Source of the DNA: Tropicimonas sp. IMCC6043
GTDB taxonomy: Bacteria; Pseudomonadota; Alphaproteobacteria; Rhodobacterales; Rhodobacteraceae
DNA: 64,000 bases
Reading direction: 5' to 3'
Assembly (NCBI RefSeq): GCF_004146235.1
Contig: NZ_SELO01000003.1
Span: 295,304-359,303, forward strand
Shown here: piece by piece, positions 4,449 to 46,849 of the stretch
Numbering within the stretch: the stretch's first letter is position 1
How the letters are laid out: each line of letters opens with the position of its first letter
Notes under the pieces: model-generated
Databases searched by the model: none
Told to the model about the DNA's origin: nothing
Seen by the model: the letters and a program-made list of their open reading frames with translations, nothing else
Program-made: the position numbers and the translations under genes

Positions 4449-4651
4449 GAGGCCGCTCGCCGCGCTCCAGCTCCGGGCGCGCGGGCTTTTCCGCTCTTGC
4501 CGCCCGCCCCCTCTTCTGTTCACAAATGTCCCCGGGGTCCGGGGCAACGCCCCGGCCCTGAGCCCCAGGGCGGGCGGACGATTCAACGCGGAAGCGTTAC
4601 GCGACGGTTCCGAACAATGGACGCTGCCGGCCGGATGGAGGACGCGCAGAC

Positions 4652-5557
4652 GTGAACCAGAAACAAATCAACGCCTTTCGGATGGTGATGCGGCACGGCT
4701 CCATCACCGCGGCCGCGCATGCGCTCAACGTGTCGCAACCTGCGGTGAGCCGGTTGATCGCGGACCTGGAGAGTTCGATCGGTTTCCCGCTGCTACTGCG
4801 GCCCGGCGGCAAGGTGCAGCCGACGCCCGAAGCCTATGACTTCTTCGCCGAGGTCGAGCGGATGTTCTACGGCCTCGAGCGGCTCTCACAGGTCGCCGCG
4901 GATATCCGCACGATGCAGCGGGCGACCTTTCGCATCGCTTCCATGCCGATGGTCAGCTTCGAAATCATCCCGCGTACCGTGAAGCGCTTCATCGACCGAC
5001 ATCCCGGCGTCGGCCTCACCCACGACGTCCATACCTCGGCCCGCATCCTTGACCTCCTGGCCTCGCGCCAGATCGACCTCGGCGTCGCCCAGACCTCGCC
5101 CGAGCGGCAGGATGTCGACGTGCTGGCGAGTTTCCGGACCGACTGCGTCTGTGTGATGGCGCCCGACCACCCGCTGGCCGGACGCGCGGTCTTGACGCCG
5201 CAGGACCTCGCCGACGAACCACTGGTGGCGCTGAATTTCCGCACGATTACCTACGGCTACATGACGCAATGCTTTGCCCAGGCGGGCGTGAGCCCGCGCG
5301 TGGTGGCCGAGACTCAGCCCTCCTATTCCGCCTGCGGGCTGGCCGCGCTCGGCACCGGCATCGCGCTGGTCGACCCGATCACGCCGGGCATCTTCGGCGC
5401 GGCACTGCGCTCGGTCCCTTTCGCGCCGGAAATCCCTTTCGAATACCAGATCATGAAGCCGGCCGACCTGCCGCTGAGCCGCGCCGCGATGGAGTTCTTC
5501 GAGGAACTTCTCGCCGCCATCGCGCTCCGGCCGCAATATGGGCGGCGGATATCATAA
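4652..5557 (+). CDS. LysR family transcriptional regulator
   Basis: A 301-aa LysR-type regulator: N-terminal winged HTH at residues 1-60 (FRMVMRHGSITAAAHALNVSQPAVSRLIADLE) and a two-lobed periplasmic-binding-like effector domain at about 90-295. It is transcribed in the same direction as, and immediately ahead of, the TRAP/aldolase/molybdoenzyme genes starting at 5653, so it is the probable activator of that pathway, responding to the imported acid or an intermediate. Many LysR genes are divergent from their targets; here the arrangement is co-directional and the presumed binding site overlaps the 3' end of the gene (see 5552-5570). Confidence 0.93.
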   Translation: MNQKQINAFRMVMRHGSITAAAHALNVSQPAVSRLIADLESSIGFPLLLRPGGKVQPTPEAYDFFAEVERMFYGLERLSQVAADIRTMQRATFRIASMPMVSFEIIPRTVKRFIDRHPGVGLTHDVHTSARILDLLASRQIDLGVAQTSPERQDVDVLASFRTDCVCVMAPDHPLAGRAVLTPQDLADEPLVALNFRTITYGYMTQCFAQAGVSPRVVAETQPSYSACGLAALGTGIALVDPITPGIFGAALRSVPFAPEIPFEYQIMKPADLPLSRAAMEFFEELLAAIALRPQYGRRIS

Positions 5558-5570
5558 GGTTTTGGCATGA
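5552..5570. promoter_or_regulatory. Candidate LysR box (TCAT-N11-ATGA)
   Basis: The dyad TCAT-N11-ATGA has the T-N11-A form typical of LysR recognition sites. It overlaps the stop codon of the LysR gene and lies about 83 bp upstream of the TRAP binding-protein start, a plausible activator position. One short dyad is weak evidence. Confidence 0.3.
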
Positions 5571-5652
5571 CCTCCTCGGTATTTTGTATTTGATTTGATC
5601 GCCCCAAGGGGTGAGGCTCAGAGAAACACCAACAACGACAGGGATAGATGCG

Positions 5653-6648
5653 ATGACCTTCACGCGACGCGCCACGCTTGCCGTCACCACCGGATGGATC
5701 GCCCTCGCGGCGGCCGGATCAGTCCAGGCGGCGGATTACACGCTCAGGCTTCACACCCTGGTCAAGTCGCCCCATCCCTATAACGACATGGCTCAGGCGA
5801 TAAAGGCCGAGATCGAGGAGAAGAGCGGCGGGCAGATTGCCGTCGAGATCTTCGATTCCGGCCAACTCGGCCAGGATCCGGCGGTGATCGGCGAGATGGG
5901 CTTCGGCACGATCGACCTGATGATCTCGACCACCTCGAACGCCGCGCAGCAGATCCCGGAATATTCGATCTTCACCATGCCGTATCTCTTCGGCAGCATG
6001 GACGAGGTGCTGGAAACGGTCGGCCCCGGCAGCGCCGTGCAGGCCCATTTCGAGCAGGTCTATGCCGACCGGGCCGTCGGCATGAAGCTGCTGGCGCTCG
6101 GTGCCTCGGGCACCCGGAACATGGCGACCGCAAGCGTCGCGGTGAGCGGACCGGCCGACCTCGCGGGGCTCAAGATGCGCACGCCGCCCTCGCCGATGGA
6201 CGCCAAGACCTGGGCCGCTTTCGACATGCACCCGGTCACTGTCGCCTGGGGCGAGCTTTACGCCGCGATGCAGACCGGCGTCGCCGACGCCATGGAAAGC
6301 TCCCTGCCCGGCTATACCGGCTCCAAGCTCTACGAAGTGGCGCCGAACCTGGCGCTGACCGAGCACACGATCCAGATCAACCACACATCGATGTCGCAGC
6401 GAAGCTGGGACAAGCTGCCGGAAGATCTTCAGAAGATCGTCAAGGAGGCAGCCGTGTCCGCCAATGCCTTCGGCGTCGAGAAGGCCAAGGAATACGATGC
6501 CGGGCTGGTCGACACCCTGCAATCCGAGCACGGCGTTTCCGTCACCCGGCCGGACAAGGCGCCCTTCATCGAGGTGTTGGCGCCGATCCAGGTGGAGCTC
6601 GCCAAGGAGCTCGACCTGACCGAGGAATACGAACTGCTGAAGCAGTAA
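5653..6648 (+). CDS. TRAP transporter substrate-binding protein (DctP family)
   Basis: A 331-aa periplasmic binding protein. ATG 5653 gives a signal peptide (MTFTRRATLAVTTGWIALAAAGSVQA, then ADYTLRLH). Family signatures are LAGLKMRTPPSPMDAKTW, containing the substrate-clamping Arg, and WGELYAAMQTGVADAMESS. The upstream in-frame ATG at 5611 adds 14 residues that would spoil the signal peptide. The gene heads a TRAP-enzyme cluster and is followed by a GC hairpin at 6661-6682 before the membrane subunits. It is only distantly similar to the DctP at 548-1552, so a different substrate is likely. Confidence 0.93.
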   Translation: MTFTRRATLAVTTGWIALAAAGSVQAADYTLRLHTLVKSPHPYNDMAQAIKAEIEEKSGGQIAVEIFDSGQLGQDPAVIGEMGFGTIDLMISTTSNAAQQIPEYSIFTMPYLFGSMDEVLETVGPGSAVQAHFEQVYADRAVGMKLLALGASGTRNMATASVAVSGPADLAGLKMRTPPSPMDAKTWAAFDMHPVTVAWGELYAAMQTGVADAMESSLPGYTGSKLYEVAPNLALTEHTIQINHTSMSQRSWDKLPEDLQKIVKEAAVSANAFGVEKAKEYDAGLVDTLQSEHGVSVTRPDKAPFIEVLAPIQVELAKELDLTEEYELLKQ

Positions 6649-6660
6649 CCCCCCTGGCCG

Positions 6661-6682
6661 CCGCCCCGGCCCGCCGGGGCGG
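6661..6682. terminator. GC hairpin between dctP and dctQ
   Basis: CCGCCCCGG and CCGGGGCGG form a perfect 9-bp stem with a 4-base loop directly after the binding-protein gene. There is no T-run, so it is more likely an mRNA-stabilising or partially attenuating element that gives more binding protein than permease. Confidence 0.6.
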
Positions 6683-6700
6683 CCCCCTCACGGATCTGAC

Positions 6701-7168
6701 ATGCTGAACCGCCTTTGCGACCGCGTGACGGTCGTCGCGCGCCTGCTGATGTGGATCGGCTTCGCCGCGCTGATCGCAACCGTCGCGCTACAGGTCATCG
6801 CCCGCAACCTTCTGACCACACCGATGATCTGGACCAGCGATCTGGCGCAGCTTCTCTTCACCTGGCTGATCTTCGTCGGCGCGGCCGTGGGCCTCCGGAC
6901 CGGGGCGCATTACGACGTCGACCTGCTGCCGATGAACCGGCCGGCGGTGGCGCGGAGTGTGGAGATCATCAGCCTCGTCGCCGGCGCCTGCGTCTCCTGG
7001 CTGCTGATCCGGCACGGCTGGGAGCTTGCGATCGTCCGGGCAACCGCCGAGGTCCAGTCTCTCGGCATCTCGCGGTTCTGGATGTTCCTGCCTCTGCCGG
7101 TCTCGGGTACGCTGATGGCGCTCTACCTGCTCGAGATGGCCGCCGGCATGGCCCGGAGGGCAACATGA
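6701..7168 (+). CDS. TRAP transporter small permease (DctQ family)
   Basis: A 155-aa four-helix inner-membrane protein: helices at about 13-33, 47-65, 88-106 and 128-148. The family motif region WTSDLAQLLFTWLIFVGAAVGLRTGAHYDVDLL lies between helices 1 and 3. It forms the membrane part of the TRAP transporter with DctM. Its stop overlaps the DctM start in an ATGA (7165-7168), implying translational coupling. Confidence 0.93.
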   Translation: MLNRLCDRVTVVARLLMWIGFAALIATVALQVIARNLLTTPMIWTSDLAQLLFTWLIFVGAAVGLRTGAHYDVDLLPMNRPAVARSVEIISLVAGACVSWLLIRHGWELAIVRATAEVQSLGISRFWMFLPLPVSGTLMALYLLEMAAGMARRAT

Positions 7169-8466
7169 ACCCGCTCGTCACGCTGCTGCTGAGCTTCTTC
7201 GTGCTGATCGCGCTCCGGGTGAATATCGGCTTCTCGCTGATCCTGTCCTCGGGCTTCGTAATCCTGCTGCAGGATCTTCCGCTCATTTCGGTGGTCAACC
7301 AGATGTATGCCGGCATCGACAGCTTCACGCTGATGGCGGTGCCATTCTTCATGCTGCTTGGCCGGATCCTCAACGCCGGCTCGATCACCGAGAGGCTGCT
7401 CGAGGTCGCCGATGCAACCGTCGGCCATGTCCGGGGCGGGCTCGGCCATGTCAACGTCTTCGTCTCGATGGTCTTTGCCAGCCTCTCCGGCTCGGCGGCG
7501 GCCGACACCGCCAGCGTCGGCTCGATCCTGATCCCGGCGATGAAGAAGGCCGGCTACCCCGCGCCCTTTGCGGCCGCGCTGACGGCAGCCTCCTCGACGC
7601 TCGGCGTCATCATCCCGCCCTCGATCATCCTCATCATCTACGGCGCCTTCGGCAATGTCTCGATCGGCGCGCTGTTCGTCGGCGGCGTCGTTCCCGGCAT
7701 GCTGATCGGGCTCTTCATGATGACCTATACCTACATGCTTGCGGTGAAATACGGCTACCCGGCGAACCCGTTCCCCGGCTTCGCCCGGGCCGGACGGGTG
7801 CTGGTGCGGGGCGCTCCGCCGCTTCTGATCCCGGTGATCGTGCTGGGGGGCATCGTCGGCGGCTTCTTCACCCCCACCGAGGGCGCGATCGCCGCAGTGC
7901 TCTGGGCGCTGTTCCTGTCGCTCTTCGTCTATCGCGACATCCGCCCAGCAGCGCTGCCGAAACTGCTGGCCGATGCGGTGATCGATTTCGCGATCCCGAT
8001 GTTCACGGTGGCCGGCGCTGGCATCTTCGGCTGGCTCATCGCCTATCTCGGCGCATCGAAGATCGTTGTGGAGTTCATTCTCGGGGTCACTTCGAACGGC
8101 TTTCTCATCATGCTCTTGCTGATCGGCTTCCTGCTGCTCGTGGGAATGGTGCTAAACCCGATCTCGGCGACGCTGATCTTCCTGCCGATCATCCAGGCCC
8201 TCGGCGACACCGCCGGGCTGCACCCGGTCCACATGGGCGTGCTCTCGACCATCGTCCTGTCGGTCGGGCTGGTCACGCCGCCCTATGGCATCTGCCTGCT
8301 CATCGCCACCCAGATCGCCGACGCGCCGCTCGGGCGCTCCATGCTCGCCGCAGCGCCGATCTGCGGCCTCACCATCCTGGTCGCCATCCTGTCGATCTGG
8401 ATCCCCGATATCGTCCTGGGCCTGCCCAAGCTGCTGGTCCCGGAACTCTTTGCAACTGGAGGATAA
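7165..8466 (+). CDS. TRAP transporter large permease (DctM family)
   Basis: A 433-aa polytopic inner-membrane protein of usual DctM length, the ion-coupled channel of the TRAP system. Recognisable segments are FASLSGSAAADTASVGSILIPAMKKAGYPAPFAAALTAASSTLGVIIPPSI (the conserved first half, read in parts) and FFTPTEGAIAAVLWAL in the second half. ATG 7165 is fixed by the overlap with the DctQ stop; GGAGGG lies just upstream. Together with the genes at 5653 and 6701 this is a complete tripartite transporter that precedes the catabolic enzymes. Confidence 0.95.
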   Translation: MNPLVTLLLSFFVLIALRVNIGFSLILSSGFVILLQDLPLISVVNQMYAGIDSFTLMAVPFFMLLGRILNAGSITERLLEVADATVGHVRGGLGHVNVFVSMVFASLSGSAAADTASVGSILIPAMKKAGYPAPFAAALTAASSTLGVIIPPSIILIIYGAFGNVSIGALFVGGVVPGMLIGLFMMTYTYMLAVKYGYPANPFPGFARAGRVLVRGAPPLLIPVIVLGGIVGGFFTPTEGAIAAVLWALFLSLFVYRDIRPAALPKLLADAVIDFAIPMFTVAGAGIFGWLIAYLGASKIVVEFILGVTSNGFLIMLLLIGFLLLVGMVLNPISATLIFLPIIQALGDTAGLHPVHMGVLSTIVLSVGLVTPPYGICLLIATQIADAPLGRSMLAAAPICGLTILVAILSIWIPDIVLGLPKLLVPELFATGG

Positions 8467-8470
8467 CTTG

Positions 8471-9409
8471 ATGGCACATTCAAAGCCCCTGGGCTCGTTC
8501 GTTGCCCTCGTCACCCCGATGAACGCCGATGGAAGCATCGATTACGAGGGCTTCCGCACCCTGCTCGACTGGCATGCCGAGAACGGCACCACGGCGGTTC
8601 TGATCATGGGTTCCACCGGCGAGGTCTCGATGCTCTCACCCGAGGAACGCAAGAAGATCATCTCGGAAACGGTGAAGATGAAGCCGGGCAAGATGCTGAT
8701 GTATTACGGCGTCACCGGCAACAACACCGCGACGACTATAGACTATGCCCGCTACGCCAAGGCCGAGGGCGCCGACGGTGCGATCATGGCGGCGCCGGCC
8801 TATATCTGCGCCGACAACGCCGCGATCACCGACTACGCCTTCGAGGTGCTCGACAGCACCGACCTCGCGATGGGCTTCTACAACAACCCGCCGCGGGTGA
8901 AGACCGATCTGCACTGGACCGACCTGCTGAAACTGGCCGAACACCCCAACATGGTGGTGTTGAAGGAATCCACGACCCGCGTCGGGCAAGTGGCGCAGGT
9001 CTGCGCGGCGAAGCCCGACATGTCGATCATGTGCTGCTGCTCGCCTAATCTCGGTCTGGTGATCCCGACCATGGCGCTCGGCGGCCACGGCACGGCGAAC
9101 ATGACCGGCAACATCATCCCGCGCGAGATGGCGGTGATCTCCAAGCCCTGGGAGAGTGGCGAGGATGCCTTTGCCTGCCGGGAGGCGTGGCTCACCAACC
9201 TGCCGATGCTGCATTTCGCCTATGCGGCGGTCAACCCGGTCTCGATCAAGACGCTGATGCGCGCCGTCGGCCTGCCCGCCGGACCGCTGCGCAAGCCGCT
9301 GCGCCCGGCATCGCCGGAAGTGATGGCGCAGGGCCTCAAGGCCTTCTCCGATCTGGGGCTGGCTGAGAAATACGGGCTGTCGGTCAACTCGGCCGCCGCC
9401 GCAGAGTAG
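8471..9409 (+). CDS. Dihydrodipicolinate synthase (DHDPS/NAL) superfamily aldolase
   Basis: A 312-aa class I aldolase of the DapA/NanA superfamily. The Schiff-base lysine is Lys165 (VVLKEST), the catalytic Tyr is Tyr138 (GFYNNP), and the carboxylate-binding loop is GSTGE (residues 47-51, Thr replaced by Ser at the first position). These residues act on 2-oxo acids by aldol cleavage, condensation or dehydration. Because it sits between a TRAP importer and a molybdoenzyme rather than among lysine genes, a catabolic 2-oxo-acid lyase or dehydratase is more likely than true DapA. AACTGGAGGA precedes ATG 8471. Confidence 0.88.
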   Translation: MAHSKPLGSFVALVTPMNADGSIDYEGFRTLLDWHAENGTTAVLIMGSTGEVSMLSPEERKKIISETVKMKPGKMLMYYGVTGNNTATTIDYARYAKAEGADGAIMAAPAYICADNAAITDYAFEVLDSTDLAMGFYNNPPRVKTDLHWTDLLKLAEHPNMVVLKESTTRVGQVAQVCAAKPDMSIMCCCSPNLGLVIPTMALGGHGTANMTGNIIPREMAVISKPWESGEDAFACREAWLTNLPMLHFAYAAVNPVSIKTLMRAVGLPAGPLRKPLRPASPEVMAQGLKAFSDLGLAEKYGLSVNSAAAAE

Positions 9410-35306: not shown

Positions 35307-36029
35307 CTATTCGGGGTCAAAGACGTAGCCTATCCCGCGGACCGTTCGGATAAGGCTCGGTTTCTGCGGGTTGGTCTCGATCTTTCGTCTGAGCCGCGAA
35401 ATGCGGATGTCGATACTCCGGTCGAACGGGTCCCAGGAGCGGTCATGCGCCTGTTCGAGGATCTGGTCCCGGTTGAGCACCCGCGCACGGTTCTCGGCGA
35501 ATAGCTTGAGGAGGCGGAATTCCATCGCCGTCAGCGTCACCTCCTCGCCACTCTCGCGAAAGAGCTTGGCGGCGTCGATATCGAGGGTGAACGGACCGAA
35601 GGGCACGGTTGCGCGCCCGCCCTCGGGTATCGCCACCGGAGCCTCGACCTGCGACGGCGCCCGGCGCAGCACTGCCTTGATACGTGCCTCCAGTTCCCGC
35701 AGGTCGACCGGCTTTCCGAGGTAGTCGTCGGCCCCCATCTCGAGGCCGACAATCCGGTCGATCGTCTCTCCGGCCGCGGTCAGCATCACCACGGGGACCC
35801 GACTGTCAGCCCGCAGCGTGCGCAGCGCTGTCAGGCCGTCCTCGCCCGGCATGTTCACGTCGAGCAGGATCAGGTCCACGTCCTCCTCCGCCAGCCTGGC
35901 TCGCATCTGGGACGGGTCATGGGCAGCAACGACATCGAAGCCCCGCTTGCCGAGATATTCCGACAGCATCTCGCAAAGATCGGTTTCGTCGTCGCAGACC
36001 AGGATCCTTGGGTTCGAACCTTCCGTCAT
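35307..36029 (-). CDS. Two-component response regulator (OmpR/PhoB family)
   Basis: A 240-aa regulator: receiver domain at about 8-122 with acidic pocket CDDETD, phospho-acceptor Asp in LILLDVNMPGEDG (about residue 56), Thr/Ser in VVMLTAAGE and Lys in YLGKPVD; winged-helix DNA-binding domain at about 138-238 (LTAMEFRLLKLFAENRARVLNRDQIL, DRSIDIRISRLRRKIE, read in parts). It starts within the stop of the hybrid kinase gene (36026-36029), so it is that kinase's coupled partner. Target genes are unknown; the divergent sulfur and redox genes from 38514 are candidates. Confidence 0.94.
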   Translation of the reverse strand: MTEGSNPRILVCDDETDLCEMLSEYLGKRGFDVVAAHDPSQMRARLAEEDVDLILLDVNMPGEDGLTALRTLRADSRVPVVMLTAAGETIDRIVGLEMGADDYLGKPVDLRELEARIKAVLRRAPSQVEAPVAIPEGGRATVPFGPFTLDIDAAKLFRESGEEVTLTAMEFRLLKLFAENRARVLNRDQILEQAHDRSWDPFDRSIDIRISRLRRKIETNPQKPSLIRTVRGIGYVFDPE

Positions 36030-38239
36030 CGCCTGCCTCCTTCGGCGAGAATTCCGGCGACGAAATCCCGCAATTCCTGTGGCGAGACCGGCTTCTCGAT
36101 ATAGGGCCGGCCTGCTTCGCGCAGGAACGCCTGCGAGGCCCGGCCCATCGTGTCCCCGGTCAGGAACCCCGTTTTCGGCTCCGCGTCCGCGCGAACCCGC
36201 CTGATATGGTCGAGAACGCCCCGCCCGTCGATATCGGGCATGTTCAGGTCGCTCACGATGCAGTCAAAGGGCTGACGTGAAATGGCGTCAACCGCTTCGG
36301 TGCCAGAATAGGCTACCGTTACGTCATAGCCAACGCGTTCCAGCACCTCGCCGTTCAGGTCCGCAACGTCGGCCTCGTCATCGACCACGAGGATCCTGGC
36401 GGCGGGCCGCTCTTTCGCCTGCGCCCCCTCCTCATCGGCCACTTGGTCCAGCGCCGGAATCTCGATCACGAAGCGCGCGCCCTGGCGGTGGGCGGGGTCG
36501 AGCGAGATCCGGCCATTGTGGGTCTGGACGACACGATTACACCATGTCAGGCCGATCCCCTTTCCGTCGCCGACGCCGCGCGTCGTGAAAAAGGGATCGA
36601 AGATCTTCCCGGCGATGTCCTTCGAGACGCCGGGCCCGTCATCTTCAACCACGATTCGGACGCAGCCGGACGCCGTGCTGCCGGTCGTCACAGTGATGTT
36701 CCCGACGCGCCCCGTATCGGCAAATGCCGCCTGCGCATTCTCGATGAGGTTGATGACCACCTGCGCCATCTGGTCGGGATCGGCCCGGACTGCCGGGACG
36801 TCCTCCGCCAGCCGCGTGGTGACGGAGTAACCGGCCTCGTCCAGGCCCTGGCGGGTAAACTCCAGCGCCGTCGTGACGATCTCGTTGACATCCGCGGCGC
36901 CCAGTTCCACCGGTTCCTGGCGCGACACCGTCAAGTATGTCTTGACGATGTCGCTGCATCTCTCGGCGGCGGTTCCGATCCGCGTCGCCTGACGGATTAC
37001 CTCGGGGTCGTCGCTCTCCTCTCGCAGCATCAGCGCATGTCCAATAACCACCGAAAGCGGGTTATTCAGCGCGTGCGACACGTTCGCGAGCATGCCACCG
37101 AGAGCCGAGAGCTTGTCATTCTGGAACATTCGCTCCCGTCGCTGTGACAGGTCAAGCTCTTGTGCCAGTTGGGAAGTGAGGTCACGAGAGTAGGACACGA
37201 TCACGTCGCGCCCTTCATATTCGAACATTCGGGCCGAGATTGCGCCCCAGAACGGCGCTCCGTCTGCGCCGCGAAAACGTGCCTTGTAATCGCTCACGGT
37301 GCCATCCCGGCGCAGCGCTTCGAGGAAACCCGCGCGGTCGGCCGGATCGACGTAGAACTCATGCGTGTTCTCGTTGGTGCCGAAGAGACGGTCGATCTCG
37401 GGGCTTCGGAACAAGACCCGCCCACTCTCCGCCTCGGTCATCAGGATCGGGGCCGGGCAATGCTCCACAACCTTGCGGATGATGGCCTCGCGTTCCGCAT
37501 GCGGTCGCAGGTCGACCAGCGTTGAGACGACACAGGCCTCCCCGCGATACTGTGTCAGCCGCCCGTTGATCGACATCGGCACCGGCGTTCCGTCGGCAAC
37601 GCGGAACATCATGCGCTGTGCATCGACCGTCCCTTCGCGGCGCAGGGTGCGGACATAGGCGTCGCGGTCGGCGGGCGAGATATAGTGCTCCTGCGCGAAG
37701 ACCGTGTCGCCGAAGAGCGCCCGTGCCGTTGGAGAGCGATAGACGATCCGACCATCGCGCAGCCGCGCCATGATCACCGGCATCGGGTTGGTGTCGAGGA
37801 TGTTGCGCAGGAGCGCCTCGCTGTCCTGAAGCGAGCGGCTGTCACGCCGCGTGGCGGTGACGTCCCGGCGGACCTGAACGAAACCGCCCGACTCGGTCGG
37901 GTTGTAGCGGACGCCATGGACGGAACCGTCCGACAGCGGAATCTCCATCTCCCCCGTCGCGTCGCTGCCGATATTCGCCTGCCATTCCCGTTCCCGATCC
38001 GCGGCATCGGCGTAAACGCCGCTGGCGACACAGGCCTGCAGCATGTCTTCCCAGCGAAGGCCGGGAACGATCCGTTCGCGGATCGGTTCCATCATCTCGC
38101 CGAAACGCTCGTTCCAGGCGACGAGGCGCCGGTCGGCATCGAACACCGCGACGCCATCGGAAAGTGCCTCCATGGCCTCCCGGAAGAAGCCGCCATCAAT
38201 GTCATCAGGAGTGTTGGGAGTCGCGCGGTGTTGGTTCAT
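36026..38239 (-). CDS. PAS-domain hybrid sensor histidine kinase with C-terminal receiver
   Basis: A 737-aa soluble kinase (no membrane segment). Domains: three PAS modules at about 20-130 (DGVAVFDADRRLVAWNERF), 140-250 (PVIMARLRDGRIVYRSP) and 255-360 (PILMTEAESGRVLFRSP); HisKA with His about 389 in [14 protein letters not shown]; HATPase with N box NLIENAQAAF, DDGPGVS and GKGIGLTWC; receiver at about 615-730 with DDEAD and Asp in VSDLNMPDIDG. ATG 38239 is chosen; GTG 38248 would add three residues. A cytoplasmic redox, gas or ligand signal is likely. The second and third PAS modules resemble those of the kinase at 45368. Confidence 0.93.
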   Translation of the reverse strand: MNQHRATPNTPDDIDGGFFREAMEALSDGVAVFDADRRLVAWNERFGEMMEPIRERIVPGLRWEDMLQACVASGVYADAADREREWQANIGSDATGEMEIPLSDGSVHGVRYNPTESGGFVQVRRDVTATRRDSRSLQDSEALLRNILDTNPMPVIMARLRDGRIVYRSPTARALFGDTVFAQEHYISPADRDAYVRTLRREGTVDAQRMMFRVADGTPVPMSINGRLTQYRGEACVVSTLVDLRPHAEREAIIRKVVEHCPAPILMTEAESGRVLFRSPEIDRLFGTNENTHEFYVDPADRAGFLEALRRDGTVSDYKARFRGADGAPFWGAISARMFEYEGRDVIVSYSRDLTSQLAQELDLSQRRERMFQNDKLSALGGMLANVSHALNNPLSVVIGHALMLREESDDPEVIRQATRIGTAAERCSDIVKTYLTVSRQEPVELGAADVNEIVTTALEFTRQGLDEAGYSVTTRLAEDVPAVRADPDQMAQVVINLIENAQAAFADTGRVGNITVTTGSTASGCVRIVVEDDGPGVSKDIAGKIFDPFFTTRGVGDGKGIGLTWCNRVVQTHNGRISLDPAHRQGARFVIEIPALDQVADEEGAQAKERPAARILVVDDEADVADLNGEVLERVGYDVTVAYSGTEAVDAISRQPFDCIVSDLNMPDIDGRGVLDHIRRVRADAEPKTGFLTGDTMGRASQAFLREAGRPYIEKPVSPQELRDFVAGILAEGGRR

Positions 38240-38513
38240 GATTCTCACGTAGCCCCCGGTTGTTTCAGCGCGTTTTCACGGCGCGTGCGAAACGTTTCAA
38301 TTGTAACAGCACCGAAATTCGCCCGCGGCCAGCCCTTCCTGAAAAACCAATATATTTCAGCAAACTGGAAAGAAACCTTGGCGTTCTCTGGCTGAAGCCT
38401 TCGAAACACAGCTGCCCGAAAACGGAAATGAAACCGCAAAGGACGGGGCGCAGTGTGATGCCATCGACAGACGACACCATCGTCGATGGATACCAAGAGG
38501 AAGGGAAACACCC

Positions 38514-38721: not shown

Positions 38722-40203
38722 ATGCCCGGCATCAAATCCTCGATCCTCGACACGATCGGCAATACGCCCGTCGTTCGTATCAACAACATCGCCCCGGAAG
38801 GGGTTGAACTCTATGTCAAATGCGAGGCGTTCAACCCGCTCGGCTCGGTCAAGGACCGACTGGCGCTCGGCGTGATCGAGGCGGCGGAGAAGGCCGGAGA
38901 GCTCAAGCCCGGCCAGACCGTGGTCGAGGCGACCTCAGGCAATACCGGCATCGGCCTCGCCATGGTCTGCGCACAGAAGGGCTATCCGCTGGTGCTGGTC
39001 ATGGCCGAGAGCTTCTCGGTCGAGCGCCGCAAGCTGATGCGCTTTCTCGGCGCGAAGGTCGTGCTGACGCCGGCCTCCGAAAAGGGGTCCGGCATGGTCG
39101 CCAAGGCCAAGGAACTCGCCGAGCAGCACGGCTGGTTCTGGACCCGTCAGTTCGACAACCCGGCGAATTCCGAGATCCACGCCCGCACCACAGCGGTCGA
39201 GATCCTAGAGGATTTCGGCGAGGACGGGCTCGACTACTGGGTCTCCGGCTTTGGCACCGGCGGCACGATGAACGGTGTCGCCCGCGTGCTGAAGAAGCGT
39301 AGCCCCAGGACCCGCATCGTCGCCGCCGAACCGGACAATTCGCAACTCCTCAACTCCGGCATCGCCCAGAGCTTCGGCCCGGACGGCGCCGCGACCGGCA
39401 GCCACCCGAATTTCCGCCCGCACCTGATGCAGGGCTGGTCGCCCGATTTCATCTCGCAACTGGCGCAACAGGTGCTGGATGCCGGTCATATTGACAGCTT
39501 CTGCCCGGTGCCGGGCGAGGCGGCGCTGCAATGCGCGCGCGACCTGGCTGCGAAGGAGGGCATCTTCTGCGGCACCTCCGCCGGAGCGACCTTTGCCGCG
39601 GCTCTGGAAATCGCCAAGACCGCGCCGAAAGGATCGAAGATCCTGGCCATGCTTCCCGATACCGGCGAGCGGTATCTCTCGACGCCGCTCTTCGCCGACG
39701 TGCCCGAGGAGATGACCGCGGAAGAGATCGCGCTCTCGCGCTCCACGCCGAACTACCGCTTCGACGTGACCGCGCCGGCCCCTGCCCCGGCAGCGGCGCC
39801 TGCGCCGGCGGCAGAGCCGTCGCTCGTCGCCGAGATCGAGGAGATCGTCGCCTCCAACCCGGTCGTGATCTTCGCGCTGGAATGGTGCGAGTTCAGCTGG
39901 TCTGTGCGCAACATGTTCGCCGAAGCCGGAATCCCCTATCTGAGCGTCGACCTCGACTCGGCCGCCTTCCAGAAGGACAACAAGGGAACGCGCTATCGGG
40001 CCGCCCTGCGCGAGATCACCAGAGCGCCAACCATTCCGCAGATATTCGTCGCCGGAAGCCATATTGGCGGGGCAACCGAGACCTTTGACGCCTTCAACTC
40101 TGGGAAGCTGCAGGCGGCGCTGAACAGTGTCTCGGTGGCTTTCGACGCAGATATGACCCGCGATGCGTATTCCTTCCTGCCCGGTTGGTTGCACCCCCGC
40201 TGA
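38722..40203 (+). CDS. cysK: Cysteine synthase fused to a glutaredoxin-like domain
   Basis: A 493-aa two-domain protein. Residues 1-345 are O-acetylserine sulfhydrylase: PLP Lys44 in NPLGSVKDR, substrate loop TSGNTG (71-76), phosphate loop GTGGTMNG (178-185) and GTSAGA (284-289), dimer region LPDTGERYLSTPLF. An Ala/Pro linker (350-366) leads to a glutaredoxin-like domain (368-475) with Cys389 in EWCEFSWS (monothiol C-x-x-S), cis-Pro in TIPQIFV and GG at 449-450. It makes cysteine from O-acetylserine and sulfide; the extra domain suggests thiol-redox control or reduction of the sulfur donor. Ordinary CysK is about 310 aa. Followed by a strong terminator. Confidence 0.92.
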   Translation: MPGIKSSILDTIGNTPVVRINNIAPEGVELYVKCEAFNPLGSVKDRLALGVIEAAEKAGELKPGQTVVEATSGNTGIGLAMVCAQKGYPLVLVMAESFSVERRKLMRFLGAKVVLTPASEKGSGMVAKAKELAEQHGWFWTRQFDNPANSEIHARTTAVEILEDFGEDGLDYWVSGFGTGGTMNGVARVLKKRSPRTRIVAAEPDNSQLLNSGIAQSFGPDGAATGSHPNFRPHLMQGWSPDFISQLAQQVLDAGHIDSFCPVPGEAALQCARDLAAKEGIFCGTSAGATFAAALEIAKTAPKGSKILAMLPDTGERYLSTPLFADVPEEMTAEEIALSRSTPNYRFDVTAPAPAPAAAPAPAAEPSLVAEIEEIVASNPVVIFALEWCEFSWSVRNMFAEAGIPYLSVDLDSAAFQKDNKGTRYRAALREITRAPTIPQIFVAGSHIGGATETFDAFNSGKLQAALNSVSVAFDADMTRDAYSFLPGWLHPR

Positions 40204-40245
40204 GCAGACATCATCCTTCCCACGGCCTCTCCCGGGCCCGCCTCG

Positions 40246-40275
40246 ATCCCGCCGAGAAAATCGGCGGGATTTTTT
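40246..40275 (+). terminator. Rho-independent terminator after the cysK-Grx gene
   Basis: ATCCCGCCGA and TCGGCGGGAT form a perfect 10-bp stem with a GAAAA loop, followed by six T residues. It ends the transcript 43 bp after the cysteine synthase stop. Confidence 0.88.
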
Positions 40276-40439
40276 ATGATTTCAGCCTGTTACGGCGCGA
40301 CCTTCATTCGAAACACTTGATACACGGTGGCCCTTTTCCTGACCGAAAACTGAAACGCAGGGCCCCTAGAACTCCGGTCATGGCCAGTCGAGACCGGCCG
40401 CCAAACCCAAACGAAAACATCACACAGGATACCAATCAG

Positions 40440-41018
40440 ATGAACACCGCCACCCTGGAAAGGCCCGCCAAGATCGCCAAGAACGGCGTCAACGTTCCCA
40501 CCCTTCTCGCCACCATCGGCGTGGTGAAGGATATGCCCGCCGCCGCGAAGTTCCAGTTCCGCGCCAGGGGCGAATGGGTCAGCGGCACCCACAGCCGCGC
40601 CGCCATCAACGGCTATTTCGGTGCCGGCGAGGAGCAGAGCCGCGAGAAGGATTTCGTGATCGAGGGTGACCATCCCGCCGTTCTTTGCGGCGCGGACAAG
40701 GCCCCCACCCCGGTCGAGTATCTTCTCTCAGCGCTCGCAGCCTGCCTGACGGCCGGTGTCGGCAATATCGCGTCGGTTCGCCAGATCGACCTCGAGTCGG
40801 TCGAGACCATCGTCGAGGGCGATATCGACCTTCAGGGCCTCCTCGGCCTGAATGACGAGGTCCGGAACGGCTACCAGGGCATCCGGGCCACCGTGAAGAT
40901 CAAGGGCGATGCCTCCGCCGAACAGCTCGAGAAGGTCGTCCAGCAGTCCGTCGCCCGCTCCGCCGTCTTCGACATGCTCACCAATGGCACGCGCGTCGAA
41001 GTCGCGATCGAGGCCTGA
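40440..41018 (+). CDS. OsmC family protein
   Basis: A 192-aa OsmC-fold protein. Cys83 (HPAVLCGADKAPTPVEYLL) and Cys102 (SALAACLTAGVGN) are present, but the C-terminal cysteine of OsmC/Ohr peroxidases is missing: the corresponding helix reads QQSVARSAVFDML. A Cys-pair peroxidase mechanism is therefore doubtful, and the protein may use Cys102 alone or bind a ligand. ATG 40440 gives the natural N-terminus; a start at 40380 would add 20 residues and lacks a clear ribosome site. A terminator follows at 41025. It differs from the canonical OsmC protein at 1802. Confidence 0.88.
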   Translation: MNTATLERPAKIAKNGVNVPTLLATIGVVKDMPAAAKFQFRARGEWVSGTHSRAAINGYFGAGEEQSREKDFVIEGDHPAVLCGADKAPTPVEYLLSALAACLTAGVGNIASVRQIDLESVETIVEGDIDLQGLLGLNDEVRNGYQGIRATVKIKGDASAEQLEKVVQQSVARSAVFDMLTNGTRVEVAIEA

Positions 41019-41383: not shown

Positions 41384-42634
41384 ATGACCCGCAACACAGA
41401 CGTCCTGATCATCGGCGCCGGACAGGCCGGGCTCGCCATGAGCCGCTGCCTGACCGATCGCGGGATCGACCACGTGGTGCTCGACCGTGGCGCCATCGGC
41501 CAACGCTGGCGGGCGGAACGCTGGGCCTCGCTGCACCTGCTGACACCCAACTGGATGACCCGCCTGCCCGGATGGCAATACGACGGCCGCGACCCCGAAG
41601 GCTTCATGCACAAGGACGAGTTGATCGGCATGCTGAGCCGCTACGCCCGCTCCTTTACCGCGCCGGTCGAGGAATTCGCCGCGGTCAGGTCGCTGCGCGA
41701 GACCGCGCGCGGCTACATGGTCGCGACGCAAAACGGCACGTGGACCGCCCGGTCCGTCGTCATCGCCACAGGCGCCTGCGACCGCCCGGCGGTGCCGGGT
41801 TTCGCAAGAGCCGCGTCTGGCGGCCTCACCCAGGTGACGACCGCGGACTACGTCCACCCTGCGCAGCTTCCGAACGGCGGCGTGCTGGTGGTCGGCGCCT
41901 CGGCCACCGGCGTGCAACTGGCCGAAGAGATCCACCGCTCCGGCCGCCCCGTTACCCTCGCCGCCGGCTCCCACACGCGGCTGCCGCGCCGCTATCGCGG
42001 GCGCGACATCCTTGCCTGGCTGGACCGCTGCGGCAGCCTGACGGAGGCGCGCGACCCGAGCGTGCCCGGCGCACAGGCGCTGCGCCAGCCATCGCTGCAA
42101 CTTGTCGGCAGCACGCCACCGCGCGACATCGACCTGATGACGCTGGCGCGGCTGGGCGTGCGGGTGACCGGCCGGCTTGCCGGGCTTGACGGCACCGCCG
42201 CGCATTTCGCCGGCACGCTCGCCGCCGACATGGCCGCCGCCGAGACCCGTCGCAACCGCACCCTCGCGCGCGTCGACGCGTTCATCAATAGCTACGGCAT
42301 CGTGGCGTCCCCGCCCGTGCCGGCGGAACCTGCCGTTGCACCCAACCGCGCCGGCGATACCGCGCTCGATCTGCGCGCAAGGGGGATCCGCTCCATCGTC
42401 TGGGCGACAGGGTTCCGCCGCGACTACCCATGGCTGAAAGTGCCGGTGCTCGACCGGCATGGCGAAATCCTTCAATCCGGCGGCGTGACCCCCTGCCCCG
42501 GCCTCTTCACGCTCGGCCTGCCGTTCATGCGGCGCCGCAACTCAACCTTCATCGACGGCGTCGGACAGGACGCGATCGAGATCGGCGCGCTGATCGCGCA
42601 GCATCTCGACCGGTCCGGCCGCGCCGCCGCCTGA
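41384..42634 (+). CDS. FAD/NAD(P)-binding flavoprotein monooxygenase-like
   Basis: A 416-aa two-dinucleotide-binding flavoprotein. The FAD motif is VLIIGAGQAGLAMSRCL (GxGxxG at about 11-16), the second NAD(P) motif is GGVLVVGASATGVQLAEEI (about 165-183), and an ATG motif IVWATGFRRDYPW occurs near residue 340. The order resembles flavin-containing and Baeyer-Villiger-type monooxygenases and putative flavoprotein potassium-transport (CzcO/TrkA-like) oxidoreductases. The FxGxxxHxxxW signature of classical FMOs is not seen. It is 15 bp upstream of another flavoprotein gene. Confidence 0.85.
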   Translation: MTRNTDVLIIGAGQAGLAMSRCLTDRGIDHVVLDRGAIGQRWRAERWASLHLLTPNWMTRLPGWQYDGRDPEGFMHKDELIGMLSRYARSFTAPVEEFAAVRSLRETARGYMVATQNGTWTARSVVIATGACDRPAVPGFARAASGGLTQVTTADYVHPAQLPNGGVLVVGASATGVQLAEEIHRSGRPVTLAAGSHTRLPRRYRGRDILAWLDRCGSLTEARDPSVPGAQALRQPSLQLVGSTPPRDIDLMTLARLGVRVTGRLAGLDGTAAHFAGTLAADMAAAETRRNRTLARVDAFINSYGIVASPPVPAEPAVAPNRAGDTALDLRARGIRSIVWATGFRRDYPWLKVPVLDRHGEILQSGGVTPCPGLFTLGLPFMRRRNSTFIDGVGQDAIEIGALIAQHLDRSGRAAA

Positions 42635-42649
42635 AACAGGAGAAAGACA

Positions 42650-43825
42650 ATGACCAATCGCCAGCAAACCGACCATTTCGACGCCCTGATCGTCGGCGCC
42701 CGATGTGCCGGCGCAGCCACTGCGATGCTACTCGCTCGCGCGGGGATGAAAGTTCTGGTCGTTGACAGGGACGCCGCCGGCACCGACACGATGTCCACCC
42801 ACGCTCTGATGCGCGGCGCGGTGATGCAGCTGACACGCTGGGGCCTCGTGGATGGGCTCCTCGCCGCCGGCACGCCGAAGGTCCGCAAGACCACCTTCCA
42901 CTACGGCGGGCAATCCCTCCCACTAGACATCCGCCCAAGCCACGGCGTCGATTTCCTCCTCGCGCCGCGCCGGACGGTTCTCGACGCCGCACTGGTCGCC
43001 TCCGCCCGCGCCGCCGGGGCCGAGATCCGCTATGAAACCGCGCTCCGCGGCCTCCAGCGCGACCCGGAAACCGGCCGTGTCATCGGCGTGGAGCTGAAAT
43101 CCACGAGCGGAAGGAGCTACAGCGTATCCGCAGATATCACCATCGGTGCCGACGGACGCCGTTCCTCCGTCGCCCGGATGGTCGAGGCGCCGGTGCGCCA
43201 CTTGTCCCGCCACCAGACAGGATGTGTCTATGCCTATGTCGACGGGCTCCCGGATGACGGCTTCCGCTGGTATTACGATGCCAACGCCTCGGCCGGCGCG
43301 ATCCCGACCAACGCGGGCGCCCATTGCGTCTTTGCCGCCCTGCCCGCCGAGGATTTCCGAAAGGCGCGGGAAGCCGTTTCCCGAAACGACCTCCTCGCCA
43401 CGCTCGCGACCCGGGCAAACCGGGAGCTCGGCGCCATGCTTGCGGAAACGGAGGTGGCCACGCAACCGATCCTCTTTGCAGGTGCCGATGGCCATATGCG
43501 GCAATGCACCGGCCCTGGCTGGGCGCTGGTCGGCGATGCCGGCTATTTCAAGGACCCGCTCACCGCGCACGGGATCACCGACGCGCTGCGCGACGCCGAG
43601 ATCCTCGCCCGTGCGGTGGTCGCGGGGAGCGATACGGCACTGGCCGGATACCAAAGCGATCGCGACGCGCTCTCGATGGACCTGTTCCACGTCACCGACC
43701 GCATCGCCTCCTTCGACTGGACGCTGGAAACACTCCCGCGCCTGCACAAGCGCCTCAACGATGCGATGAAACAGGAACAGACCTGGATGGCGCAGACGTT
43801 TGCGCCGGCCGACCTCGCCGCGTGA
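42650..43825 (+). CDS. FAD-dependent oxidoreductase (PHBH/geranylgeranyl-reductase-like)
   Basis: A 391-aa group A flavoprotein: N-terminal FAD motif DALIVGARCAGAATAMLLAR (GxRCAG variant typical of geranylgeranyl-reductase-like and halogenase-like proteins), DG motif ADITIGADGRRSSVAR (about 160-175) and the GD motif WALVGDAGYFKDPLTAHGITDALRDA (read in parts, about 290). Such enzymes hydroxylate, epoxidise or reduce hydrophobic or aromatic substrates. AGGAGAAA precedes the start; 15 bp after the other flavoprotein, so the two are probably co-expressed. Confidence 0.88.
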   Translation: MTNRQQTDHFDALIVGARCAGAATAMLLARAGMKVLVVDRDAAGTDTMSTHALMRGAVMQLTRWGLVDGLLAAGTPKVRKTTFHYGGQSLPLDIRPSHGVDFLLAPRRTVLDAALVASARAAGAEIRYETALRGLQRDPETGRVIGVELKSTSGRSYSVSADITIGADGRRSSVARMVEAPVRHLSRHQTGCVYAYVDGLPDDGFRWYYDANASAGAIPTNAGAHCVFAALPAEDFRKAREAVSRNDLLATLATRANRELGAMLAETEVATQPILFAGADGHMRQCTGPGWALVGDAGYFKDPLTAHGITDALRDAEILARAVVAGSDTALAGYQSDRDALSMDLFHVTDRIASFDWTLETLPRLHKRLNDAMKQEQTWMAQTFAPADLAA

Positions 43826-43954: not shown

Positions 43955-44314
43955 TTGGAAAAGAGCCTCTTCGACAAATACGGCGGGTTCTCGACCGTCA
44001 GCAAGATCGTCATGCGCCTCTACGACAAGCTGCTGGACGATGACGATGTCGGCCCGTTCTTCGATGACGTGGACATGCCCCGCCTCATCGACCACCAGAC
44101 CAAGTTCGTCGCAACCCTCATGGGGGGGCCTGCCTCCTTCACCGACACTCATATCCAGCGCGCGCACCACAACCTCGACATCGAACCGCTGCATTTCGAC
44201 CGGCTCAAGGATCTGATCGCGGAGACATTGGAAGAGTTCGACGTCGCGCCGGAGGACATCGAAACCGTGCTCGCCGCATTCGAGGCGCGCCGCAGCCTGC
44301 TGCTCGACGCTTGA
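43955..44314 (+). CDS. Truncated haemoglobin, group I
   Basis: A 119-aa 2-on-2 globin. Typical features: SLFDKYGGFSTVSKIVMRLYDKLLDDD (helices A-B), FFDDVDMPRLIDHQTKFVATLMGGP (CE region and helix E with the Gly-Gly-Pro end, read in parts) and the proximal haem His, most likely His71, in IQRAHHNLDIEPLHFDRL. It binds haem and would sense or react with O2 or NO. The start is TTG 43955 with a strong GGGGGAG eight bases upstream; no ATG is available in a suitable position. One base separates its stop from the cyclase ATG, so the globin is probably a sensor subunit for the cyclase and/or the kinase. Confidence 0.9.
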   Translation: MEKSLFDKYGGFSTVSKIVMRLYDKLLDDDDVGPFFDDVDMPRLIDHQTKFVATLMGGPASFTDTHIQRAHHNLDIEPLHFDRLKDLIAETLEEFDVAPEDIETVLAAFEARRSLLLDA

Positions 44315-44315
44315 T

Positions 44316-45371
44316 ATGACGATCGAGGCCATCAACGAACAGCTCCTGCGCGCCATCGGCGTCGGTGTCGCCCTGCTCGACCTCGAAACGCTGGAGCTGA
44401 GCTTTCGCAACGACACGTTCATGGAATGGTTCGGTGGGCCGGAGGCGAGCGCCCGGTTGGCCGACCTCTTCCCCACGCTCGACATCGAGGCGCTTGGCGC
44501 GGAGCTATCCGACGGCGGGAAGTTCACGGCCGAGACGAGCTTCAAGCTGAAGCGACGGCGGATGACCGTGGCGATGGACTTCACCCGCGCGGGCAATGCC
44601 GGCGAGCGCATCGCGGTGCTCGTCTGTCAGAACATCACCCGCATCAAAGAACTGGAATCCATGATCGATTCCTATTCGATGATGGTGGAGCGCAACACGC
44701 ACGAGATCAAACGCGAGAAGGAGCAGGTCGAGAAACTCCTGCTGAACATGATGCCGCGCTCGGCCTATGAGGAATACAAGTCCTTCGGCGTCGTGGCGCC
44801 GCGGATCTTCGAGTCGGTCTCCGTCCTGACGCTCGATTTCGAGAATTTCGACCGCATCCTCGAGGCCAACGACCCGGCGGTCATCGTGAGCGAGTTGAAC
44901 GACATCTACACCGCCTTCGACCGGATCGGCGAGCAGTTCGGCTGCGAGCGGGTGCGGACCAATGGCGACAGCTATTTCGCCGTCTCCGGCGTGCCGGACC
45001 CGGTGCTCGACCACGCCGAATCCGTCGCCAAGGCGGCGGTACGCTTCCTGCGCTACCTGTCGCGCCGCAACGAGAGCCACCCGATCCGCTGGCAGGCCCG
45101 GCTCGGCCTCGCCTCGGGCCCGGTCGTCGGCTCCGTGGTCGGCGTTCAGAAATACATCTACGATGTCTTCGGGCCGGCCGTTGAGCGGGCGACACGGACC
45201 CGGACGCGGGCACAGGGCATGACAGTCGCGGCCCATCCGAGCATTCGCGACCTGCTGGATTCGCGCTTCACGCTCACGCCGCTGGCGCCGGCGAAGGCGC
45301 AGCCCGAGCCGCGCGAAGACCTGTTCCTGCTTGAGGAATCGAACCCGGCCACTGCGACCGGGCCAGCGTGA
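44316..45371 (+). CDS. Class III nucleotidyl cyclase with N-terminal PAS-like and coiled-coil region
   Basis: A 351-aa soluble protein: PAS-like domain (about 10-110), a signalling helix/coiled coil (111-148, ELESMIDSYSMMVERNTHEI, then LLLNMMPRSAYEEYK as in soluble guanylate cyclases) and a class III catalytic domain (about 165-330). Metal Asp174 (LTLDFENF) and Asp218 (RTNGDSYFAVSG) are present, as is the transition-state Arg294 (ATRT). The base-recognition pair is Arg214/Asp283 instead of Lys/Asp (adenylyl) or Glu/Cys (guanylyl), and the transition-state Asn is replaced by Glu290. Product (cAMP, cGMP or other) is therefore uncertain. The stop overlaps the kinase GTG (45368-45371). Confidence 0.88.
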   Translation: MTIEAINEQLLRAIGVGVALLDLETLELSFRNDTFMEWFGGPEASARLADLFPTLDIEALGAELSDGGKFTAETSFKLKRRRMTVAMDFTRAGNAGERIAVLVCQNITRIKELESMIDSYSMMVERNTHEIKREKEQVEKLLLNMMPRSAYEEYKSFGVVAPRIFESVSVLTLDFENFDRILEANDPAVIVSELNDIYTAFDRIGEQFGCERVRTNGDSYFAVSGVPDPVLDHAESVAKAAVRFLRYLSRRNESHPIRWQARLGLASGPVVGSVVGVQKYIYDVFGPAVERATRTRTRAQGMTVAAHPSIRDLLDSRFTLTPLAPAKAQPEPREDLFLLEESNPATATGPA

Positions 45372-46849
45372 CAGTGGACGCGGCGGAGCATGACGCGGTG
45401 ACGGCACCCGAAACGATCGGAGTGCAGGAGGCGATCGACCTCCTGCAAGAAGCCGTCGCCTTCTTCGACGCCGACGGCATGATCGCGGCAACCAACGAGA
45501 GTTTCCGCGCTGCCTATGGCGGCATCCGGGAATATATCCGCCGGGGATCCTCCTGGGAGATATTCCTCCTGGAGGCGGAGCGGCACGATATCCTCGTGCG
45601 CGAGACCTGCCAGGCGCTCCGCCTTGCAGAGGACATGCTCGCGCAGGGCCGGCCAGCGCCGGCGCCGGTCGAACACGCTTCCGGCGACGATGACGCCTTT
45701 CTCATCCGCCTCAAGCCGCTGTCGAACGGCGGCTTCGCGATGATCCAGACCGAGGTGGTCGACCAGCGCGCAAGGGCCGACAGCGACCGCATGGCGGAGC
45801 TCCTGATGTCCAAGGTGCTTGAGGCCTGCCCGGCGAACCTCACGATGTCCCGCATCGGCGACGGCCAGATCCTTTATCGCACGCCGGCGGCGACCGAATT
45901 GCTCGGCGCGGTCCGCAACAGCCGCGACCACTTTGCGCGGATCGAGGAGCGGGCGGATTTCGTCACCGCCCTCTTGCCCGACGCACAGGTGGACGACATG
46001 CGGGTCACCGGCCGGCGGCGGGACGGCACAGAGTTCCCGGCCTCGCTCTCGGCGCGGCTGATCGACTATCTCGGCGAAGAGGTCGTGGTCGCCAACATGA
46101 CCGACCTCTCCAATGAGCTGGAGCTGCGGGCGGAGCTGGAGCGGCAGAAGGACCTGGCCTTCCAGTCGGAAAAGATGTCGGCCCTCGGTGAGTTGCTCGC
46201 CAGCGTCGCGCATGAGCTCAACAACCCGCTCTCTGTCGTCGTCGGCAATGCCACGATGCTGGGCGAGGAGGATCTGGGCGAGAGCGCCCGGAAGCGGGTC
46301 GAGAAGCTTGGCGCGGCGGCCGACCGCTGCGTCCGGATCGTGCGCACCTTCCTTTCGATGGCGCGCGAACGCCCACTGACGCTTTCCTCGGCAAGCCTGT
46401 CGGAGCTGGTGGAAACGGCGCTCGACGCCTATCAGAGCCATTCCGACGGGAGCGGCACGACCATCGAGGTCACATTGCCGCCGGACCTGCCGCCGGTATC
46501 GGTCGACGAGGTTCAGATCGTGCAGGTTCTCCTCAACCTGCTGACCAATGCCGAGCAGGCCATGGCCGAAGCAGGCGTCGGAGATCGCATCCGGATATCC
46601 GCGGCCAGGGTGACGGGCTCCGGACTTGTCCGCATGACGGTCCGCGACAACGGACCCGGCATTCCGTCCGAGATCCGGGGGCGGATATTCGATCCTCTCT
46701 TCACCACCAAGTCGAAGGGAAAGGGCACCGGCGTCGGGCTCGCCTTCTGCCATCGCGTGATCTCGGCGCATGGCGGCACCATTCAACTGGACCGGACCGC
46801 GCAGAACGGCGCAGGTTTCCTGATCGACCTGCCGGTCGCCGCATCCTGA
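45368..46849 (+). CDS. PAS-domain sensor histidine kinase
   Basis: A 493-aa soluble kinase: two PAS-like modules (about 20-125, [21 protein letters not shown] in parts; 140-255, [23 protein letters not shown] in parts), HisKA with His in [18 protein letters not shown], and HATPase with [17 protein letters not shown] and [11 protein letters not shown]. No receiver or DNA-binding partner is adjacent, so it is an orphan kinase; the regulator at 35307 is the nearest candidate, and its kinase at 36026 has similar PAS and H-box sequences. The GTG start overlaps the cyclase stop, giving a coupled globin-cyclase-kinase unit. Confidence 0.92.

Follow-up and report, generated by a model that had tools for sequence, protein, structure and literature searches.

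A conserved truncated globin–cyclase–histidine kinase operon of Alphaproteobacteria in which the cyclase may serve as a relay

We analyzed a stretch of 64,000 nucleotides from Tropicimonas sp. IMCC6043 (Rhodobacteraceae; contig NZ_SELO01000003.1, positions 295,304 to 359,303; hereafter, the window), which contains an operon encoding a truncated haemoglobin (hereafter, the globin), a class III cyclase, and a histidine kinase (HK1). We put at about one in two the probability that a signal passes in this conserved operon from the globin through a cyclase-derived relay, in which the catalytic Asn is replaced by Glu, to the kinase. The three genes are as follows:

43955..44314, forward strand: globin, group I truncated haemoglobin, predicted gas sensor (TTG start, 119 aa; Bac_globin E 3e-15, Pfam)
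44316..45371, forward strand: cyclase of PAS–coiled coil–class III architecture, resembling soluble guanylate cyclase (sGC) without H-NOX, predicted catalytically impaired relay (ATG start, 351 aa; Guanylate_cyc E 1e-30)
45368..46849, forward strand: histidine kinase HK1, PAS-PAS-HisKA-HATPase, no receiver domain (GTG start, 493 aa; HisKA E 1e-14, HATPase_c E 7e-25)

A single base (44315) separates the globin gene from the cyclase gene, and the cyclase and kinase genes overlap by four bases, GTGA. The coordinates, the Pfam matches, and the structural model of the cyclase confirmed the three-gene operon with the spacing and overlap that an earlier note had read from the DNA alone. NCBIfam offered no specific name for the globin, cyclase, or kinase. 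The note knew of no well-described system with this layout, and searches of the open-licence literature for globins with cyclases or for inactive cyclases indeed gave no such operon. Its interpretation was supported in part: the system is conserved, but it most likely has one output, the kinase, rather than two.

The association of globin, cyclase, and kinase is beyond chance. A scan with the cyclase alone, using one genome per species, yielded 58 loci, and the closest cyclase to that of the window was from Tropicimonas isoalkanivorans (89% identical). The globin gene lay directly upstream of the cyclase in 51 of the 58 loci, all 51 alphaproteobacterial, and the kinase gene directly downstream in 44 of these 51. 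The remaining seven loci belonged to distant, non-alphaproteobacterial bacteria, had no globin, and matched the cyclase only from around residue 106 onward. The earlier note had named a lack of conservation in relatives as an objection to its proposal; the objection fails because the triplet is conserved in relatives, being carried by the 44 loci as well as by the window. A sample of 394 genomes from the family gave matches in 25, with a kinase behind the cyclase in six, none behind it in 18, and one locus cut by a contig end. In a sample of the class, 17 of 385 genomes matched, and none of the 14 regions newly fetched had a kinase behind the cyclase. That the clade reaches beyond Alphaproteobacteria was rejected, as the phylum sample gave matches in 3 of 398 genomes, every one from this class.

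Exact duplicates (11 rows) were removed before tree building, and the seven non-alphaproteobacterial rows were excluded from the resulting set of 82 distinct alphaproteobacterial loci. The globin gene was 5′ of the cyclase in 82 of 82 loci, with a spacing from −11 (overlap) to +143 bases; in L009, it is present though cut by the contig end. A histidine kinase was found directly behind the cyclase in 45 loci and no adjacent kinase in 37, where kinases were sought by tblastn similarity to the kinase of the window within 400 bases 3′ of the cyclase, so that an unrelated kinase would be missed. The kinase lineage is mostly Rhodobacterales and also includes loci titled Croceicoccus, Novosphingobium, Qipengyuania, Oricola, Notoacmeibacter, and Nitratireductor. 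Because the globin–cyclase pair is kept in all 82 loci and the kinase in only some, the pair is the stable core, and the kinase is an addition in one lineage.

According to a passage in PMC4215837, an Asn and an Arg stabilize the transition state in class III cyclases generally. The cyclase of the window has the class III fold and both metal-binding Asp residues (Asp174 and Asp218), and at the two transition-state positions it has Glu290 and Arg294. The codons concerned are given below, with counts for the kinase clade of 46 loci defined in the next paragraph:

44835..44837, forward strand: metal-binding Asp174, kept (Asp in 43 of 46 kinase-clade rows)
44967-44969, forward strand: Asp218, metal partner of Asp174 (Asp in 46 of 46 rows)
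45162-45164, forward strand: purine-site Asp283 (Asp in 46 of 46 rows)
45183..45185, forward strand: residue 290, Glu at the position of the transition-state Asn (aligned with the Asn of 5o5k/7yz9 and of the second cyclase domain of AC5)
45195..45197, forward strand: residue 294, Arg at the position of the transition-state Arg (aligned to solved relatives)

The metal- and purine-binding roles of Asp174, Asp218, and Asp283 are those that we take to hold for the family. Across the 82 loci, Asn and Arg were both kept in none of the 45 loci with a 3′ kinase versus 34 of the 37 without an adjacent kinase (Fisher p 6e-20, a statistic that ignores relatedness). The residue counts exclude L114 and L119, which have internal stops, and L099, which a contig end truncates. 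Among database relatives, both residues were kept in 0 of the best 120 window-like sequences versus all of the best 120 pair-like ones, although a profile of intact sequences had served to rank the pair-like list, and both lists are without known gene context. In a tree built without columns 290 and 294, the 45 kinase loci and L042 formed one clade of 46 (hereafter, the kinase clade; Shimodaira–Hasegawa-like approximate likelihood ratio test [SH-aLRT] 99), in which all pairs were broken; the tree was a quick one, with no bootstrap and with long branches (L091, L098, and the outgroup rows). Because of this division between kinase-linked and kinase-free loci, the cyclic-nucleotide output was most likely given up as the kinase output was gained, and the proposal of the earlier note that the globin feeds two outputs at once, cyclic nucleotide and phosphorelay, was not borne out.

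Within the kinase clade, the Asn was lost in 45 cyclases and the Arg in 26. Position 290 was Asn in 34 of 34 pair-type rows versus 1 of 46 kinase-clade rows, where no substitute was fixed (I, T, S, E, A, and V occurred). Both positions, invariant in the pair-type rows, stood at the 89th (290) and 92nd (294) variability percentiles in the kinase clade, and among the 142 domain positions the gain of variability was largest at residue 176, beside Asp174, followed by 294 and then 290. The mean variability of the domain was about the same in the two groups (0.95 vs 0.92 bits). Lys214 was replaced by Arg in 37 of the 46 cyclases, and Asp174 was lost too in L010, L022, and L023. Sixteen positions became fixed anew, and 10 of these fall at residues 76–145 (the end of the PAS domain and the helix). 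Catalytic residues that drift, a fold and nucleotide site that are retained, and newly conserved residues in the transmitter region together make up the pattern that would be expected of a relay.

The architecture of the cyclase resembled that of sGC, the nitric-oxide receptor of humans. The AlphaFold2 model (mean predicted local distance difference test score 82.8, predicted template modeling score 0.55) comprised an N-terminal alpha/beta (PAS-like) module, a helix at residues 107–145, and the cyclase fold; in Pfam, the PAS domain fell under the cut-off (E 0.0024), and there was a weak HNOBA match. The first 17 Foldseek matches of the model were sGC chains, aligned over approximately 370 columns across the PAS domain, coiled coil, and cyclase domain that the two have in common, with modest TM-scores (0.45–0.50 of the query) because the domain arrangement differs between the model and the sGC chains. 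Whereas H-NOX, PAS, coiled coil, and cyclase domain form one chain in sGC, no Pfam match to H-NOX was found in the cyclase of the window, the truncated globin is encoded by a separate gene, and the catalytic pair is broken in the kinase lineage. On the model, the cyclase looks like sGC without H-NOX, and the separate group I truncated globin is likely to fill the role of H-NOX. Because of this architecture and of the globin gene always in front, we infer as the simplest reading a split receptor with the haem sensor in one protein and the PAS–coiled coil–cyclase in another. Tentatively, the system could be a bacterial “split soluble guanylate cyclase” with a separate truncated globin as its sensor, in which one lineage swapped the output and the dead cyclase became a nucleotide-binding relay coupling the haem switch, and perhaps the ATP/GTP level, to a phosphorelay.

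Residues 3–111 of the globin matched the group 1 truncated haemoglobin of T. pyriformis, its best PDB relative (E 1e-14); further solved matches were cyanoglobins and HbN, and group 2 matches were far weaker. The relation to group 1 spans the whole fold, which places the globin among the group I truncated haemoglobins. The proximal His and the distal Tyr/Gln are present as His71, Tyr23, and Gln48 (positions that we take to be F8, B10, and E11, respectively), invariant in 51 of 51 aligned globins, and this kept pocket suggests binding of O2 or NO at the haem. To our knowledge, most truncated haemoglobins are without a settled role. A second Bac_globin match lies elsewhere in the genome of the window (G000:C160:7978-8235). 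The truncated haemoglobin of Roseobacter denitrificans was rejected as a counterpart of the operon globin, since the part of PMC4319818 that concerns it gives it as group II and it is thus a different gene.

HK1 has the features of a two-component histidine kinase, namely HisKA with the phospho-acceptor His and the HATPase boxes, and its catalytic residues (His282, Asn394, Asp427, and the G-box glycines) were kept in 45 of 45 operon kinases. In 23 loci, a receiver is part of the operon kinase and an OmpR-like regulator gene comes next; the other 22, including the window, have a kinase without a receiver, and these receiver-less kinases formed one clade of 22 (SH-aLRT 100) in a midpoint-rooted kinase tree. 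The same tree separated the operon kinases (45, SH-aLRT 99) from divergent hybrid kinases, termed HK2 (12, SH-aLRT 94). An HK2 gene and a regulator gene, absent from the earlier note, are located 5.7 kb upstream of the operon on the opposite strand, beyond the redox genes described below:

36026..38248, reverse strand: HK2, divergent hybrid kinase, PAS x3-HisKA-HATPase-receiver, paralogue of HK1 (Pfam, motifs, kinase tree)
35307..36029, reverse strand: OmpR-like response regulator (Response_reg and Trans_reg_C), start overlapping the HK2 stop (ATGA)

This regulator was 68% identical to the one coupled to the operon kinase in other loci. All nine searched genomes with a receiver-less kinase encode it on the strand opposite to the cyclase, at a distance of 4.8–11.3 kb. 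Of 14 genomes with a kinase-free pair, 13 gave no match at E 1e-60, and the fourteenth had two on other contigs. Among the 22 receiver-less loci, 11 had HK2 within the flanks that were retrieved. Because HK1 of the window has no receiver domain, HK2 and the regulator likely complete its phosphorelay, and their position near receiver-less kinase loci suggests that HK1 likely feeds the receiver of HK2 or the regulator. At 12 loci with hybrid-kinase operons (e.g., L041:9747-10181), the regulator gene is followed by another globin gene, this one of the PF00042 kind, so that some loci hold two globins of different families in one cluster.

In the pathway that we favor, the globin haem would bind O2 or NO, and the globin would dock on the PAS–coiled coil part of the cyclase as H-NOX does within sGC, a contact suggested by the shared architecture and the strict gene pairing. 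The ancestral, intact cyclase would then have produced cyclic nucleotide, as kinase-free relatives may still do, judging from their intact sites. Decay of the transition-state pair in the kinase lineage left the fold, the metal Asp residues, and the purine Asp in place; here, the cyclase may bind nucleotide with hardly any turnover and steer HK1 instead. The receiver-less HK1 would phosphorylate the receiver of HK2 and/or the OmpR-like regulator, and the regulator may control genes such as those for the neighboring thiol and flavin enzymes.

That a haem sensor on its own can regulate separate kinases or diguanylate cyclases is known as a principle from H-NOX and NosP (passages in PMC8846402); the parts found here are not. 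In H-NOX/HnoK, NosP/NahK, and H-NOX with diguanylate cyclases, as in our proposal, a free-standing haem protein signals to a separate partner (PMC8846402, same passages). In the window, by contrast, a group I truncated globin is the predicted sensor, and between it and the kinase stands a class III cyclase that is degenerate. For a function like that of H-NOX/HnoK, in which the haem protein would control the kinase in a ligand-dependent manner, the observation is conserved gene order. Globin-coupled sensors also use a globin as gas sensor for a cyclase or kinase output, according to the same source. In these sensors, a 3-over-3 globin is fused to one output domain, whereas the globin of the window is truncated and encoded separately from any output domain. 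Degenerate signalling enzymes kept as adaptors include inactive GGDEF and EAL domains and the pseudokinase of receptor guanylyl cyclases. For the receptor guanylyl cyclase, a passage in PMC1592074 describes an enzyme fold that outlived the loss of catalysis and serves in ligand binding or contact. The present case differs in that a class III cyclase in an adaptor role beside a kinase was not among the papers that searches of the open-licence literature gave. As the globin is never parted from the cyclase in the 82 loci, a signalling role for it is directly testable. If our reading is true, the nitric-oxide receptor would have a simple bacterial counterpart in the kinase-free relatives, where sensor and enzyme are separate proteins, and the kinase lineage would be a natural experiment in the change from enzyme to relay, with intact sisters, one dated transition, and the kinase gained at the same place.

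Several observations weigh against this reading. No globin–cyclase or cyclase–kinase fusion was found among the best 120 + 120 listed relatives (of 1139 and 1993), and physical contact is thus without Rosetta-stone support. The minimum number of changes on the tree was four over 89 rows, and the correlation between pair loss and kinase therefore reflects mainly one transition. The pair is also broken in three kinase-free loci, L042 (IR), L091 (AA), and L098 (IL), of which L042 is the sister of a kinase-bearing locus and has lost the kinase, and the other two are long branches. Both residues were lost in only 25 of the 46 kinase-clade cyclases, and that of the window retains Arg294. Moreover, a missing Asn is not in itself proof of inactivity, because Ma1120 of Mycobacterium avium, a class III cyclase that has Ala in its place and retains the Arg, is active (passages in PMC4215837). 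Among sister or near-sister loci with a divergent kinase nearby, L046, L078, L081, L082, and L108 have an intact pair and L091 a broken one; a nearby kinase alone thus does not bring decay. Because relatives with HK2 nearby and no kinase behind the cyclase mostly keep the pair, the link with the kinase seems older than the catalytic decay. As for L098 itself, it is a second, fast-evolving globin–cyclase pair (34% identity to the window, I/L at the pair) in a genome (G148) that also holds the kinase operon.

The genes between HK2 and the operon bear on the first of the alternatives. Four were recognized and counted in the 51 globin–cyclase loci plus the window (52 loci):

38722..40203, forward strand: PALP-family enzyme fused to glutaredoxin, cysteine-synthase-like (Pfam PALP, Glutaredoxin; 32 of 52 loci)
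40185..41018 (open reading frame), forward strand: OsmC-like protein, likely start near 40440 (OsmC E 2.5e-19; 35 of 52 loci)
41384..42634, forward strand: flavin-dependent NAD(P) oxidoreductase (Pyr_redox_3 E 3e-23; 33 of 52 loci)
42650..43825, forward strand: FAD_binding_3 oxidoreductase, adjoining the globin gene upstream (FAD_binding_3 E 2e-24; 33 of 52 loci)

Rarer neighbors in the same loci were a pyridoxal-dependent decarboxylase (13), an alpha/beta hydrolase (12), a PF00042 globin (12), and a methyltransferase (6). Together, the neighbors suggest a redox or thiol stress response. The globin might be mainly an enzyme that is expressed together with a redox stress operon and acts as NO dioxygenase or peroxidase, while the PAS domains of the cyclase and kinase sense something else. 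The adjoining redox and thiol genes speak for this, as does the Tyr/Gln pocket, which on our assignment of positions resembles that of M. tuberculosis trHbN, presumably an NO dioxygenase. We nevertheless consider it rather unlikely, as loci that lack the redox genes (e.g., L083-L090) still pair the globin with the cyclase, which identifies the cyclase, not the redox genes, as its partner.

The model of the earlier note, in which the globin drives two live outputs, appears less likely still. It would account for the metal Asp residues and purine-site Asp kept in almost all members and for the Arg of the window cyclase, and an enzyme with Ala for Asn is active (PMC4215837, in part). However, the intact pair is absent from all kinase-linked cyclases, both of its positions are among the most variable of the domain, residue 290 has no fixed substitute, and Lys214 has mostly become Arg; given the broken pair, two live outputs were rejected as the best reading.

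We regard as very unlikely that the cyclase is a half enzyme supplying the metal Asp residues, like C1 of mammalian adenylyl cyclase, with Asn and Arg coming from another cyclase. Kept metal Asp residues with the Asn absent are also seen in the aligned first domain of AC5, but besides this cyclase the genome of the window encodes just two of class III, which are built differently (open frames of 757 and 1103 aa), are approximately 27% identical where aligned, and have their own VN..AAR motif intact. No C2-like partner was seen in this genome, and a heterodimer with another cyclase was rejected for want of a suitable partner. Least probable of all is a direct action of the globin on the kinase, with the decayed cyclase a functionless leftover that is being lost. 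Catalytic positions do drift and Asp174 is lost in three loci, but the domain is on average as variable as in the intact group, 16 positions have become fixed anew, and all 45 kinase loci have the gene as an open frame.

Regarding the surroundings of the kinase-free pairs, no conserved cyclic-nucleotide effector was recognized in the neighborhood clusters, most of which were not domain-scanned. In many of the kinase-free pairs (L046, L048-L052, L092, L095, L100, and L108), an S-adenosylmethionine methyltransferase gene (Methyltransf_11) is situated upstream of the globin. In L118, a deep relative (approximately 7543-8996 after orientation, 39% identity) with an intact catalytic pair, a hybrid kinase and a regulator (4412-7299) share one strand with the globin and cyclase.

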